A stretch of 34,987 nucleotides of DNA from a virus, in the IMG/VR virus record IMGVR_UViG_3300020401_000044, positions 1-34,987 of that record; one strand, given 5' to 3'. Made by a program: the position numbers and the translations under genes. The notes beneath the pieces were generated by a model. The model saw only the letters and a list, made by a program, of their open reading frames with translations. It searched no databases and was not told the origin of the DNA. This document shows positions 30 through 20,111 of the stretch, one piece after another (the stretch's first letter is position 1; each line of letters starts with the position of its first letter).

Positions 30-58
30 TTGACAAAGAGTTAAATATGTATTATAAT
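30..58 (+). promoter_or_regulatory. sigma70-type promoter for tmRNA-pqqA unit
   Basis: TTGACA at 30-35 and TATAAT at 53-58 are separated by exactly 17 bases, a perfect match to the bacterial housekeeping consensus. It lies about 85 bases before the mature tmRNA region and is the only promoter seen ahead of it. The phage probably uses host RNA polymerase here without late factors. Confidence 0.8.
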
Positions 59-139
59 ACTGTAAAGACTGGTATATGAAAAATAACAGTTTATTCATAT
101 AACTTACAGAAATGTAATTTATAGATATATAGAATATGC

Positions 140-406
140 GTTGAAGGTAGTAAGACGATAGACTGGACGGCGGTGCGATTCCGCCTACCTCCACCAACCC
201 GAATGAGGGGGTAATGTAGGGTCGACAGGTATTAGAAGACTATTGGAGTATATGGGTGAACGCCTTATAGTTCAACACTAATAAATGCAAACGATAATTT
301 TGCATCTCAAGATTATGCCCTAGCGGCATAGTTTTATGGGTTCGGCAGTACCTGGAAACAGAAACTGCCATTGAGTGGGCTGCGGTCGTTGGGCAACCAG
401 CACTCT
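140..406 (+). ncRNA. ssrA: circularly permuted (two-piece) tmRNA
   Basis: Transfer-messenger RNA rescues stalled ribosomes and tags the unfinished peptide. The gene is permuted: the acceptor piece comes first, with a T arm (stems 169-173 and 181-185, loop TGCGATT), the 3' acceptor strand 186-192 and an encoded ACCA at 193-196. A short spacer (197-206) follows, then the coding piece starting with the 5' acceptor strand GGGGGTA (207-213). The two acceptor strands pair over 7 bp and include a G3-U70 wobble, the alanyl-tRNA synthetase identity element. The tag reading frame at 287-331 encodes ANDNFASQDYALAA and ends in TAG. Pseudoknot-like stems follow (for example GGCAGT with ACTGCC, and the hairpin at 373-405). 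Permuted tmRNA is known from alphaproteobacteria, cyanobacteria and some betaproteobacteria. The outer ends are approximate. Confidence 0.93.
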
Positions 407-430
407 TAATTCTAGAATAGGAGAAAAACT

Positions 431-508
431 ATGGCTTGGTCAAAACCAATTATTACTGAAATTTCAGTAGGTTTAGAAATCAATTCTTATGCCTGTGCTG
501 AGAAGTAA
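431..508 (+). CDS. pqqA: PqqA-like PQQ precursor peptide (25 aa)
   Basis: PqqA is the ribosomal peptide whose Glu and Tyr side chains are joined by PqqE and trimmed by other Pqq enzymes to make the redox cofactor pyrroloquinoline quinone. The 25-residue product starts MAWSKPIITE and continues with V-G-L-E-I-N-S-Y; E16 and Y20 have the obligatory E-x3-Y spacing. It follows the family pattern W-x-x-P, V-G-x-E, S-Y-x-x-A-E seen in methylotroph PqqA. A strong AGGAG lies 7 bases before the ATG. The gene sits just after the tmRNA and before a terminator, probably on the same transcript. No pqqB, C, D or E is in the window, so processing would need host enzymes. The short length limits statistical support, but the match is hard to explain otherwise. 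Confidence 0.85.
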   Translation: MAWSKPIITEISVGLEINSYACAEK

Positions 509-526
509 TAAACACAAATATATATT

Positions 527-576
527 TGGGTGGTGTATAATACCCTAGAGGTTTGAAACCACCCACTTATTTTTTT
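527..576 (+). terminator. intrinsic terminator after pqqA
   Basis: TGGGTGGT (527-534) pairs perfectly with ACCACCCA (558-565) over 8 bp, followed a few bases later by a run of seven T (570-576). It closes the tmRNA-pqqA unit and lies directly before gp33. Confidence 0.6.
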
Positions 577-591
577 AATGAAGTTAATATT

Positions 592-801
592 ATGACACCT
601 AAATCATTTTCAATTTTTATAGAAAAACAAGTTCAAGAAAAAAAGATTACTCACATGGAAGCTATTCTTGACTATTGTACAAGAAATCAATTAGAACCAG
701 ATAGTATCACAAATCTAATTCAAAAACCACTAAAAGATAAAATAGAAGCTAACGCAAGAGATTTAAACTTTTTACCAAAAATGGGTAAGTTACCAGTATG
801 A
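592..801 (+). CDS. 33: late transcription accessory protein gp33
   Basis: The 69-residue product resembles the T4 gp33 family, the RNA-polymerase-bound co-activator linking sigma-like gp55 to the sliding clamp for late transcription. The stretch THMEAILDYC followed by a helix and LNFLPKMGKLPV near the C-terminus is typical of the cyanophage and pelagiphage versions, which are shorter than T4 gp33. I chose the ATG at 592; a TTG at 553 would place the start inside the terminator hairpin. It overlaps gp59 by 4 bases, a usual T4-like arrangement. TATAAATA late promoters elsewhere in the window fit the presence of this co-activator. Confidence 0.8.
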   Translation: MTPKSFSIFIEKQVQEKKITHMEAILDYCTRNQLEPDSITNLIQKPLKDKIEANARDLNFLPKMGKLPV

Positions 802-1415
802 TTACTATGGAAGCTTTTGATGCATATAAGATATACATGGCTCTTAAAGCACATTTCAATTCTGATTATGACTTTAACAAGTATGGTGGTAAAACAACTG
901 TAACAAAACAAAGTTATTTAAAAAGAAAAGATAAATTCTTTTTTGGTAGAGTAGCAAGAAAATACAAAGAACAAGTAAAAGACTTTTTTATATCTAATTT
1001 TTTAGTAAAAGAAAAAGGTTACATTGGTTCTTTTAATGAAGATAATTATTTGTCATGGCGAAAAAGAGTTGAAAGTTTAAGATATAATTTTCAACAAGAT
1101 ATGGATATATTAGTAAATCAAGTAAATGATTTTAACAGTTTATTTAAAGTAGAAAATGGTCAACACCCTATATTGTTAAGAAATTATTTAGCAAATAGAA
1201 TAAGTGTTGAAACAATGGTAATTCTTATGAGTCTTTTAGAATTTGATAAAGATTGGGATAAAAAGATTCAAGAGAATGTCATATGGCCATCACATAAAAA
1301 AAGATTAAATAATTATGGTGGACTATTGACTTTTGACAAATCATACTATAAAATGATTCTTATTAATCTTATAAATGGAGTATATTATGACACCAACAAA
1401 CGAATCTCTGATTAG
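798..1415 (+). CDS. 59: gp59-like loader of the gp41 helicase
   Basis: This 205-residue protein matches T4 gp59 (about 217 residues), which loads the replicative helicase onto forked DNA coated with gp32. The family pattern is clear: an N-terminal A-Y-K-I-Y-M motif, then Y-x-K-R-x-D-K-[YF]-F-F around residues 40-50, a central F-I-S-N-F segment, and I-S-x-E-T near residue 135. It lies between gp33 and gp32 with which it works. The start overlaps the gp33 stop. Confidence 0.88.
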   Translation: MITMEAFDAYKIYMALKAHFNSDYDFNKYGGKTTVTKQSYLKRKDKFFFGRVARKYKEQVKDFFISNFLVKEKGYIGSFNEDNYLSWRKRVESLRYNFQQDMDILVNQVNDFNSLFKVENGQHPILLRNYLANRISVETMVILMSLLEFDKDWDKKIQENVIWPSHKKRLNNYGGLLTFDKSYYKMILINLINGVYYDTNKRISD

Positions 1416-14573: not shown

Positions 14574-15454
14574 TGTTTTTAGCTCTAGTAACTTTGTTCA
14601 TCGCACTGGCAATAAGTGCGGTTGCGGCGTTTTATAGTATCGTAGGATTGATGGCAATCTTTTCTGCATCTGCACTATCAATCGCAATAATGGGTGTCGT
14701 TCTTGAGATAGGTAAACTGATAACTGCATCTTGGTTATATCAAAACTGGAAAACAGTACCAAAGGTACTAAAGTATTATCTCACAACTGCAGTTGTTGTA
14801 TTAATGTTTATCACATCTATGGGTATATTTGGATATCTATCTAAATCACATATTGATGCTGGTACAAATACTTCTCAATTAACAGTAAAACTTGATAGAA
14901 TAAACAGTAGAATTACATCAGAACAAAAAGTAATTGATAGGGCAGAAAGACAATTAGAAAATTTAGATAAGGCACTAGAAAGATATGTAGAATTAGGTGC
15001 AGTAAGTAAAGGTTTAGATAGAAGAGAAAAACAAGAAGAAGAGAGAGAAAAGTTAACCAGTATGGTTAACAAATCACAGTTAAAAATAGATGAATATCTT
15101 GATGAGAAATCGAAATATGAATTAGAGATAAAGAATTTTGAAGTTGAAGTAGGACCACTAAAATATATTTCTGCGTTAGTTTATGGTGATAAGGCACTTG
15201 ATTATCTTGACAAAGCAGTTAGAGCAGTTATATTAATATTAGTATTTGTTTTTGACCCTTTGGCAGTTCTGTTAGTGGTTGCTGCAAATATAAGTATTAA
15301 TGACTATAATAATAAGAGAAGATTAGAGAGATTAAGAAAATTTAAAAAAGAAACTAAAGATAAAATTTTTGTAAAAAAAGAACCAGTTGGTGATGGTACT
15401 GCACAAAAAGTAACCAAAACTAAAAATGGTGTAACAATGGAATATTACGAATGA
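14573..15454 (+). CDS. membrane protein with long periplasmic or cytoplasmic coiled coil
   Basis: 293 residues. Three hydrophobic segments lie in the first 90 residues, then a long charged coiled coil (about 100-195), a further membrane segment (about 215-240) and a basic tail. Similar multi-pass coiled-coil proteins occur in T4-like marine phages without known function. It sits directly before iscA and overlaps it by 4 bases, so it is made with the Fe-S genes. Confidence 0.7.
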   Translation: MFLALVTLFIALAISAVAAFYSIVGLMAIFSASALSIAIMGVVLEIGKLITASWLYQNWKTVPKVLKYYLTTAVVVLMFITSMGIFGYLSKSHIDAGTNTSQLTVKLDRINSRITSEQKVIDRAERQLENLDKALERYVELGAVSKGLDRREKQEEEREKLTSMVNKSQLKIDEYLDEKSKYELEIKNFEVEVGPLKYISALVYGDKALDYLDKAVRAVILILVFVFDPLAVLLVVAANISINDYNNKRRLERLRKFKKETKDKIFVKKEPVGDGTAQKVTKTKNGVTMEYYE

Positions 15455-15771
15455 TTAGTCTAACTCAATCAGCAAAAGAATATTTATATAACATCGCCAA
15501 AAAGAATAATAAAGATATCGTATCTTTTGGTGTATCAGGAGGAGGTTGTGCTGGATTTAGTTATAAGTGGGATTATCTTGACAGTTACGATAACTCTTTC
15601 ACTATATTGCCAATTAAAGATAATGTTGTTCTTGCTATAGATAAAGTTGCAGAAATGTATATCATGGGTAGTGAAATAGATTATGTACAAGAACTTATGG
15701 GTAGTTTTTTAAAGATTAATAATCCACTCACGAAGTCAAGTTGTGGGTGTGGAGAATCTTTTAGTGTTTAA
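15451..15771 (+). CDS. iscA: A-type Fe-S carrier protein (IscA/HesB family)
   Basis: 106 residues, the usual length. A-type carriers receive Fe-S clusters from a scaffold and pass them to target enzymes. The three cluster-binding cysteines are present: C33 in GGGCAGFSY and C98 and C100 in SSCGCGESF. Members occur in many marine T4-like phages. Here the scaffold IscU and the Fe-S enzyme subunit SdhB lie in the same gene run, so a delivery role to SdhB is a natural inference. The start overlaps the preceding gene. Confidence 0.93.
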   Translation: MISLTQSAKEYLYNIAKKNNKDIVSFGVSGGGCAGFSYKWDYLDSYDNSFTILPIKDNVVLAIDKVAEMYIMGSEIDYVQELMGSFLKINNPLTKSSCGCGESFSV

Positions 15772-16207: not shown

Positions 16208-16597
16208 ATGGCGTACAGTAAACAACTAATAGACCATTATGAGAATCCAAGAAATGTGGGTTCACTTGATAAAGAAAAGAAAAATGTTGGTACAGGATTA
16301 GTCGGAGCGCCAGCGTGTGGTGATGTTATGAAACTTCAAATTGAAGTTGATGACACAGGTATAATAACAGACGCTAAATTTAAAACATTTGGGTGTGGCT
16401 CTGCAATAGCTAGTAGTTCATTAGTTACTGAATGGCTGAAAGGAGCTCACATTGATAAGGCACAATCAATTAAAAACACAGAGATTGCAACAGAGCTCGC
16501 ATTACCGCCAGTTAAAATCCACTGTTCGGTACTTGCAGAAGATGCTGTCAAAAGTGCAATCAATGATTATAAACGAAAGTGCAGTTGTAATGATTAG
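16208..16597 (+). CDS. iscU: Fe-S cluster scaffold protein IscU
   Basis: 129 residues, matching bacterial IscU (about 128). IscU is the scaffold on which cysteine desulfurase builds [2Fe-2S] clusters before chaperone-driven transfer. The full active set is present: C37 with D39 (GAPACGDVM), C63 (TFGCGSAIASSS) and H105-C106 (KIHCSVLAEDAVK). The LPPVK motif for the HscA chaperone lies at 99-103. An extra C-terminal CSC motif is unusual. A very strong AGGAGG site precedes the ATG. No desulfurase or chaperone gene is seen, so host partners are needed. Confidence 0.96.
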   Translation: MAYSKQLIDHYENPRNVGSLDKEKKNVGTGLVGAPACGDVMKLQIEVDDTGIITDAKFKTFGCGSAIASSSLVTEWLKGAHIDKAQSIKNTEIATELALPPVKIHCSVLAEDAVKSAINDYKRKCSCND

Positions 16598-17343: not shown

Positions 17344-17466
17344 ATGAATGAAGAAGATTTCAAAAACTTTAAAAGGTTTGATAAGATATACTGGAAACTT
17401 AATTTAGTTGATACAGTTCTATTAATAATTGTGGTCGCTGTGGTTTTAGTATCTTTATATGTTTAA
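17344..17466 (+). CDS. 40-aa single-TM peptide upstream of sdhB
   Basis: AAGGA precedes the ATG. A charged amphipathic N-terminus ([16 protein letters not shown]) leads into one membrane helix ([19 protein letters not shown]). It overlaps the sdhB start by 8 bases. One could imagine a membrane partner for SdhB, but it has no haem ligand or SdhC/D signature. Confidence 0.5.
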
Positions 17467-18208
17467 ATTACCTAAAAATTCTACTATAACAAAAGGAAAG
17501 ACTTTTGGTAAACCAAAGAATCTGGTTCTAAACATTTATCGTTGGAATCGTGAGAGTGGTAAGAATCCTAGTATAGACAAATATCATTTGAACAAATCAA
17601 AAATAGGTCCAATGTTACTTGATGCAATAATGTATATCAAGAACAATCTAGACCCATCATTAACATTTAGAAGAAGTTGTAGAGAAGGTATCTGTGGTAG
17701 TTGTTCTATGAACATCAATGGTACAAATACTCTTGCGTGTTTAACACCCATCGATAAGAAAGAATTTAACATTTATCCATTACCACATATGAGTGTCATA
17801 AAAGATTTAATTGTAGATTTAAAACCATTCTTTGACCAATACAAAAGTATCAAACCATATGTCGTTACCGGAAAGAAACCTAAAAAAGAACATATACAAT
17901 TACCAGAAGATAGAAAAAAATTAGATGGATTATATGAGTGTATATTGTGTGCTTGTTGTTCAACATCATGTCCAAGTTACTGGTGGAATAGTGATAAGTT
18001 TTTAGGACCTGCGATACTGTTACAAGCGTATCGATTTATCGTTGATAGTAGAGATAAGAATAAAAAAGAAAGACTAAAACAACTAAACGATGCATTTAAA
18101 TTATATCGCTGTCACACCATAATGAACTGTACAAAAACTTGTCCTAAAGGTTTAAACCCTGCCAAAGCAATATCTGAAATAAAAAAATTACAAGTAATTA
18201 ATGACTAA
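17459..18208 (+). CDS. sdhB: succinate dehydrogenase iron-sulfur subunit SdhB
   Basis: 249 residues, full length compared with about 238 in E. coli. SdhB carries electrons from the flavin subunit to quinone in Complex II. All three cluster sites are intact: [2Fe-2S] C74, C79, C82 and C94; [4Fe-4S] C161, C164, C167 and C171 ([12 protein letters not shown]); [3Fe-4S] C218, C224 and C228 ([17 protein letters not shown]). The quinone-site residues W175, W176 and H219 are also kept. No SdhA, C or D gene is present, so the subunit would join host Complex II. Its neighbours in the same gene run include iscU and iscA. Base composition matches the surrounding phage genes, so transfer is not recent. 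Confidence 0.96.
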
Positions 18209-19904: not shown

Positions 19905-20111
19905 ATGAAAATGAAGTATGAAGAATTTGTATCAATTATGGACGAGTCGTTTAACTATAAATTAGACTTCAAGTCTTGGAATAGAGATGAGTTTTTACAG
20001 TTTTGTAGAGATTTTTTCAATGGTAAAACAGAGTATTATATGGACGAAAACTTCAAGAAATATTTTGCAAAAAAATGCAAAAAAACCCTTGACATTGGTT
20101 TCAGAGCATAG
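19905..20111 (+). CDS. 68-aa hypothetical protein
   Basis: Aromatic and charged, starting MKMKYEEFVSIMDESFNYK. The ATG follows AGGAG by 7 bases. Its 3' end contains the -35 box of the next promoter, so the C-terminal residues overlap regulatory DNA. Not recognised. Confidence 0.55.
   Translation: MKMKYEEFVSIMDESFNYKLDFKSWNRDEFLQFCRDFFNGKTEYYMDENFKKYFAKKCKKTLDIGFRA

Follow-up and report, generated by a model that had tools for sequence, protein, structure and literature searches.

A PQQ precursor-peptide gene behind the tmRNA of a T4-like phage and its likely role in supplying host methanol dehydrogenase

Results

A pqqA gene lies between the tmRNA and gp33 of a T4-like phage

The window analysed here is the whole stretch of 34,987 nucleotides of IMG/VR record IMGVR_UViG_3300020401_000044, from a marine T4-like phage. 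At the locus of interest a promoter, a tmRNA, pqqA and a hairpin with a T-run precede the T4-like genes gp33 and gp59 (Table 1); the phage genes flanking pqqA are gp33, gp59 and gp32. The pqqA gene is an intact reading frame of 25 codons plus stop, running from ATG to TAA. Its peptide scored 32.8 bits against PF08042 (curated cut-off 21.1) and 38.9 bits (E 5e-10) against the NCBIfam equivalog TIGR02107 (cut-off 20), a profile without a match in 14 control genomes, and E16 and Y20, the pair from which PQQ is built in known PqqA, stand in the correct E-x3-Y spacing. PqqA membership was met for every sequence feature tested, and the gene is a genuine pqqA. PHROGs contains no PqqA family matching it. 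The first-pass annotation, made without database searches, had proposed a 25-codon PqqA gene with E16/Y20, a V-G-x-E and A-E context and a strong ribosome site, next to a tmRNA and with no PQQ enzymes nearby, and had suggested a profile search as a check. The profile match was obtained, and the description of the gene and its ribosome site held. So did the claim about the enzymes, within the 35-kb window: tblastn with the proteins of the putative host (see below) detected no homologues of pqqB-E or of PQQ methanol dehydrogenase there.

Table 1. Features of the window that bear on pqqA, its surroundings and the likely host
Feature	Position	Strand	Basis
Sigma-70 consensus promoter, TTGACA-17-TATAAT (12/12), upstream of tmRNA and pqqA	30..58	+	Sequence; function inferred
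Permuted two-piece tmRNA, alphaproteobacterial type	80..420	+	RF04321, RF01849; 3' end past 372 approximate
Ribosome-binding site AGGAG of pqqA	418..424	+	Read from sequence; about 8 nt upstream of ATG
pqqA, PQQ precursor peptide MAWSKPIITEISVGLEINSYACAEK	431..508	+	PF08042 and TIGR02107 over cut-off; conserved in relatives
Hairpin GGGTGGT...ACCACCC + T7, probable terminator of the tmRNA-pqqA unit	527..577	+	Fold and recurrence in relatives
gp33-like late-transcription coactivator (synteny marker)	592..801	+	phrog_254, E 3e-19
gp59 helicase loader (synteny marker)	798..1415	+	PF08993/PF08994, phrog_269
Phage-borne SdhB, host marker	17459..18208	+	NF004616 and TIGR00384 over cut-off

The neighbouring tmRNA was likewise confirmed, by RF04321 at 135-331 (98.1 bits) and RF01849 at 80-372 (81.6 bits); ARAGORN missed it. 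Its tag frame, read from the sequence at about 288-331, would encode ANDNFASQDYALAA. The hairpin behind pqqA folds at -16.5 kcal/mol, which is not significant on its own (z -1.5 against shuffles). Because of the promoter, we infer that pqqA is expressed early; the authors of the Melnitz paper likewise located that phage's tmRNA just behind an early promoter (PMC9004378). The window has two more sigma-70 promoters of 12/12 quality (TTGACA-17-TATAAT), at 20089 and 26265.

The peptide and the tmRNA-pqqA unit are conserved in T4-like relatives

Six related contigs (L002-L007) were fetched by gp59 alone, that is, without using pqqA. All six carried the peptide, identical in L002-L006 and with one residue changed in L007, and E16 and Y20 were kept throughout; conservation of the frame and of this residue pair in related phages, which the first-pass annotation had said should be sought, was thus found. 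The window differs from L007 (the same contig as L173) by 5 synonymous changes over 16.3 sites and 1 non-synonymous change over 52.7 sites. Across larger sets, pN/pS averaged 0.24 for the T4-like copies and 0.13 for the Methylophilales-type phage copies, averages that lean low because part of the set was found with a pattern fixing six residues.

The operon-like anatomy is also shared. In L005, L173, L143, L164, L148 and L221 the 12/12 promoter lies 401-458 nt upstream of pqqA, a tmRNA is present in the record and the hairpin with its T-run occupies the matching place, as it does in L188. More distant T4-like phages (L138, L167, L214, L183 and L209; gp59 44-52% identical) keep the order tmRNA-pqqA-gp33 and have the hairpin without the T-run. 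Among 80 loci fetched with a gp59 alignment blind to pqqA, four carried the gene (L143, L285, L296 and L341), a count that is a floor since some contigs are short upstream of gp33. Being carried by few gp59 relatives, pqqA is therefore an accessory gene.

Viral pqqA genes are widespread and have no PQQ enzyme genes nearby

Searching IMG/VR with a degenerate PqqA DNA pattern returned at least 120 contigs. Because W, P, E, G, E and Y are set by the pattern, the invariance of those columns in the 120 loci is circular and was excluded as evidence. A short PqqA-like reading frame was present in 120/120 pattern-found loci, and 120 of 121 viral pqqA frames were preceded by a Shine-Dalgarno-like 4-mer. 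With the putative host's proteins as queries, no homologues of PqqB, PqqC, PqqD, PqqE or XoxF were found in the fetched DNA of the 120 pqqA-bearing loci. The genomic contexts varied: besides the T4-like arrangement tmRNA-pqqA-gp33, pqqA lay directly upstream of a NifU/IscU gene in other T4-like phages (L107, L156, L215 and L219), near a portal gene (phrog_1216) in L109, L117 and L119, on loci with ribonucleotide reductase in L106, L116 and L144, and on a locus with tail genes in L176. The placement upstream of IscU may point to a connection with PqqE, an Fe-S enzyme; the window itself has two Fe-S assembly genes, an IscA/ErpA-like gene (15451-15771) and an IscU gene (16208-16597). A very large viral record of 329 kb (L170, IMGVR_UViG_3300021137_000001) carries a Methylophilales-type variant, MWTTPAVTEMRFGMEICMYVMNK.

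Among 50,697 phage records, tblastn with the window peptide and two alphaproteobacterial types gave chance-level matches only. The Methylophilales-type peptide matched Venkman, P19250A, MEP301, MEP401, MEP402 and four Melnitz records, together with one spring podovirus and two doubtful "Acinetobacter phage" records. TIGR02107 scored over its cut-off in all six isolate types and in the podovirus. The isolates' genes lie at MT375522 9974-10045, KX815270 28082-28153, MW452941 3313-3384, OP830906 41899-41970, OP830907 43047-43118 and MZ577097 76134-76208, and the peptide is of the FEVTMY type in 6/6. None of the six types, nor the podovirus, has a PqqA annotation: five isolates have no feature at all at the site, and the opposite strand bears an overlapping hypothetical gene in Melnitz and in the podovirus. 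PQQ goes unmentioned in the Venkman, MEP301 and MEP401 papers and appears in the Melnitz paper solely as a growth-medium vitamin. The six types comprise Venkman, MEP301 and Melnitz, the sole earlier OM43 phage isolates according to a 2023 paper (PMC10580990), plus MEP401, MEP402 and the freshwater P19250A; they are the published OM43/LD28 isolate types known to us, and deposits were not exhaustively enumerated. No pqqA match was found in the SAR11 phages HTVC008M and Mosig (host HTCC1062), in three cyanophages or in virus AG-345-L05. Given the FEVTMY type in the methylophage isolates and the lack of matches in the SAR11 phages and cyanophages tested, we conclude that the type of PqqA follows the host.

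We discounted the matches in "Acinetobacter phage MD-2021a", which are weak and come from an assembly that also has sdhB and looks bacterial. The INPHARED entries concerned, each with an sdhB or PqqA match (CAKLQF020000003, CAKLQF020000010, CAKLQH020000002 and CAKLQH020000055), are probably bacterial DNA.

The likely host lineage encodes PQQ synthesis beside methanol oxidation

The window SdhB is 79% identical to that of the single-cell genome (SAG) AG-911-L17, the next best match reaching 66%. This succinate dehydrogenase Fe-S subunit stands alone in the phage and is apparently host-derived, with no close viral SdhB among annotated phages. AG-911-L17 has four PqqA matches, three of which read MAWTKP[T/M]ISEISVGLEINSYACAEK and are 22/25 identical to the phage peptide; the fourth (L095, G007:C1:7245-7307) has SVALE instead of SVGLE and is possibly a paralogue that is diverging. 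A pqqABCDE operon begins with one of the copies, and its PqqB, PqqC, PqqD and PqqE score over equivalog cut-offs. The operon adjoins genes for a PQQ dehydrogenase of the methanol/ethanol family, a MoxJ-like protein and a methanol-type cytochrome, and shares its contig with fae. By our own reading of its sequence, the dehydrogenase has the WDYD motif of the lanthanide enzyme XoxF. The gene order, from lanthanide-uptake (lut)-like genes through PQQ synthesis and methanol oxidation to C1 transfer (fae), agrees with the "methylotrophy island" described for TMED127/Methylaequorales; we inferred both the label lut-like and the assignment to TMED127. At BATS, 16-57% of the transcripts that mapped to a TMED127 SAG came from xoxF5 (PMC12542740). 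In the AG-911-L17 family 31 of 32 genomes carry pqqA, in 1-5 copies, so extra orphan pqqA genes are the bacteria's own habit too.

G+C content is 31.7% in the window and 29.2% in AG-911-L17. When the other window proteins were compared by BLAST with the 0.91 Mb of the SAG, matches were weak or absent; SdhB alone was strong. RF01849 found no match in AG-911-L17, leaving the host tmRNA tag unavailable for comparison. A host resembling AG-911-L17 is thus inferred from SdhB, PqqA and G+C only, and we regard it as likely but unproven because the other window proteins lack strong matches in the SAG. With the same reservation, this likely lineage has pqqBCDE, without which, according to the first-pass annotation, the proposal would fail. 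AEGEAN-169/HIMB59 was dropped as a candidate, as the paper on that clade mentions neither PQQ nor methanol and TMED127 fits better.

Discussion

Proposed role in PQQ supply

We propose that phage PqqA supports the supply of PQQ to the host methanol dehydrogenase during infection. We hold this to be likely, with a probability of roughly 0.75, in the absence of expression, PQQ or infection data. PqqE together with PqqD cross-links the Glu and Tyr of PqqA, and PqqB and PqqC later complete PQQ; one PqqA is consumed per PQQ, and the enzymes turn over. The peptide is therefore the sole part of the pathway used one-for-one, which would explain phages that carry pqqA alone. Under this proposal tmRNA and pqqA would be transcribed early from a host-type promoter, yielding extra peptide, and host PqqD/PqqE (through the E16-Y20 cross-link), PqqB and PqqC would take it up and, by inference, convert it to PQQ. 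The cofactor would then serve XoxF, the PQQ methanol dehydrogenase that is very abundant in the host. If a phage needs extra PQQ at a time when host transcription is failing, the peptide is what would benefit it most. The sequences show that the enzymes are absent from the viral loci and present, with XoxF, in the likely host lineage. The view of the first-pass annotation that the phage feeds the substrate peptide alone to host enzymes remains the best reading; its suggestion of raised PQQ and dehydrogenase activity stays an inference, as do processing by host enzymes, maintenance of PQQ, a benefit to phage yield and any metabolic change in infection.

Published work bears on whether the peptide could limit synthesis. 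In work cited in PMC9851590, a Gluconobacter cell extract converted added PqqA peptide to PQQ at 70-80%. In Acetobacter, additional pqqAB gave a 29% rise in PQQ, whereas overexpression of the full operon gave an 8-fold one (PMC7936290), so enzymes can limit PQQ too; that PqqA rather than an enzyme is limiting in these cells is unproven. A methylotroph strain has five pqqA copies, three outside any operon, with very unequal expression (PMC9851590). Orphan pqqA is therefore normal bacterial practice, apparently copied by phages.

Alternative explanations

Could the locus be host DNA misassembled into viral contigs? The window is metagenomic and pqqA lies near a contig end; however, the tmRNA, gp33, gp59 and gp32 flanks are alike in six further contigs and pqqA occurs in complete genomes of isolated phages, which all but excludes misassembly here and already refutes it for the family. 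A captured host copy of little function, carried as a neutral passenger, would suit the patchy distribution (4/80 gp59 relatives) and the many loose pqqA copies in hosts. Against it, changes are mostly synonymous, a ribosome site precedes 120/121 frames, the gene is kept inside a promoter-terminator unit and methylophage isolates belonging to four or more separate groups have pqqA; we consider a passenger unlikely.

Two other readings grant the peptide a function, and we give both very little credence. As a decoy or brake, phage PqqA would flood PqqD/PqqE or downstream enzymes, slowing host PQQ synthesis or freeing S-adenosylmethionine. Short peptides can be competitors, and no enzyme is co-encoded with pqqA; but E16, Y20 and the whole tail are near-identical to the host substrate, and a decoy should not require the two cross-linked residues together. 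Alternatively, the peptide could be the substrate of a different radical-SAM product, PqqE-like enzymes being numerous. Against that reading, the match to PqqA is at equivalog level and the peptide is nearly identical to the putative host's PqqA whose gene immediately precedes pqqB.

Implications

A bolder version, for which we see as much reason to doubt as to believe, is that phages of aquatic methylotrophs repeatedly and independently took up the precursor-peptide gene alone, as a near-universal "substrate-only" auxiliary gene. Were it true, PQQ supply to methanol dehydrogenase would be a general bottleneck relieved by methylophages, and in some lineages an IscU scaffold carried alongside could help to mature the radical-SAM enzyme PqqE. 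The data suggest a general, testable rule, that viruses infecting aquatic bacteria that oxidise methanol encode the PQQ precursor peptide, and cultured phage-host pairs exist for testing it, such as Venkman or Melnitz on H5P1 (OM43). The proposed role would link phage infection to lanthanide-dependent methanol oxidation, which in some surface-ocean cells ranks among the processes with the highest transcription. The gene also represents a class of auxiliary genes whose products are very short cofactor precursors made on the ribosome; standard gene callers missed such genes in isolate genomes.

Comparison with known systems

The window peptide shares with bacterial PqqA (PF08042/TIGR02107) its length, WxxP start, VGxE motif, E16-x3-Y20 pair and CAE tail. 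Unlike bacterial pqqA, the gene lies on a phage, behind a tmRNA and without pqqBCDE. The tmRNA-gp33-gp59 locus resembles that of the pelagimyophage type: the tmRNA is permuted in Melnitz and HTVC008M, as in the window, and in Melnitz gp33 and gp59 follow it closely, again as here (the HTVC008M tmRNA is at KC465899 145161-145370, RF04321). In contrast to the window, neither phage has pqqA between tmRNA and gp33. Venkman, P19250A, MEP301, MEP401, MEP402 and Melnitz carry an orphan pqqA like the window phage but differ in their FEVTMY-type peptide and in its genome position.

The closest precedent that we found in the open-licence PMC literature is the Lake Baikal virus population VP_266, reported in 2020 with a virus-encoded PqqA and a viral methanol dehydrogenase (PMC7678222), and a survey of reservoir sediment includes pqqA, pqqD and pqqE in its list of viral genes (PMC13188868). 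The first-pass judgement that pqqA is not a standard phage gene accordingly needs adjusting, as one viral PqqA had been reported and all six methylophage isolate types checked carry the gene. The VP_266 peptide was suggested to help a methylotroph oxidise methanol, much as we propose here. VP_266, however, pairs PqqA with its own methanol dehydrogenase and has a freshwater methylotroph host, whereas the window phage is T4-like and has PqqA only, of alphaproteobacterial type and linked to a tmRNA. Viral PqqA is therefore not new in kind; what is new is the habit of carrying PqqA alone, its breadth, which appears to extend to phages of methylotrophs in general, the linkage to a tmRNA and the class of host.
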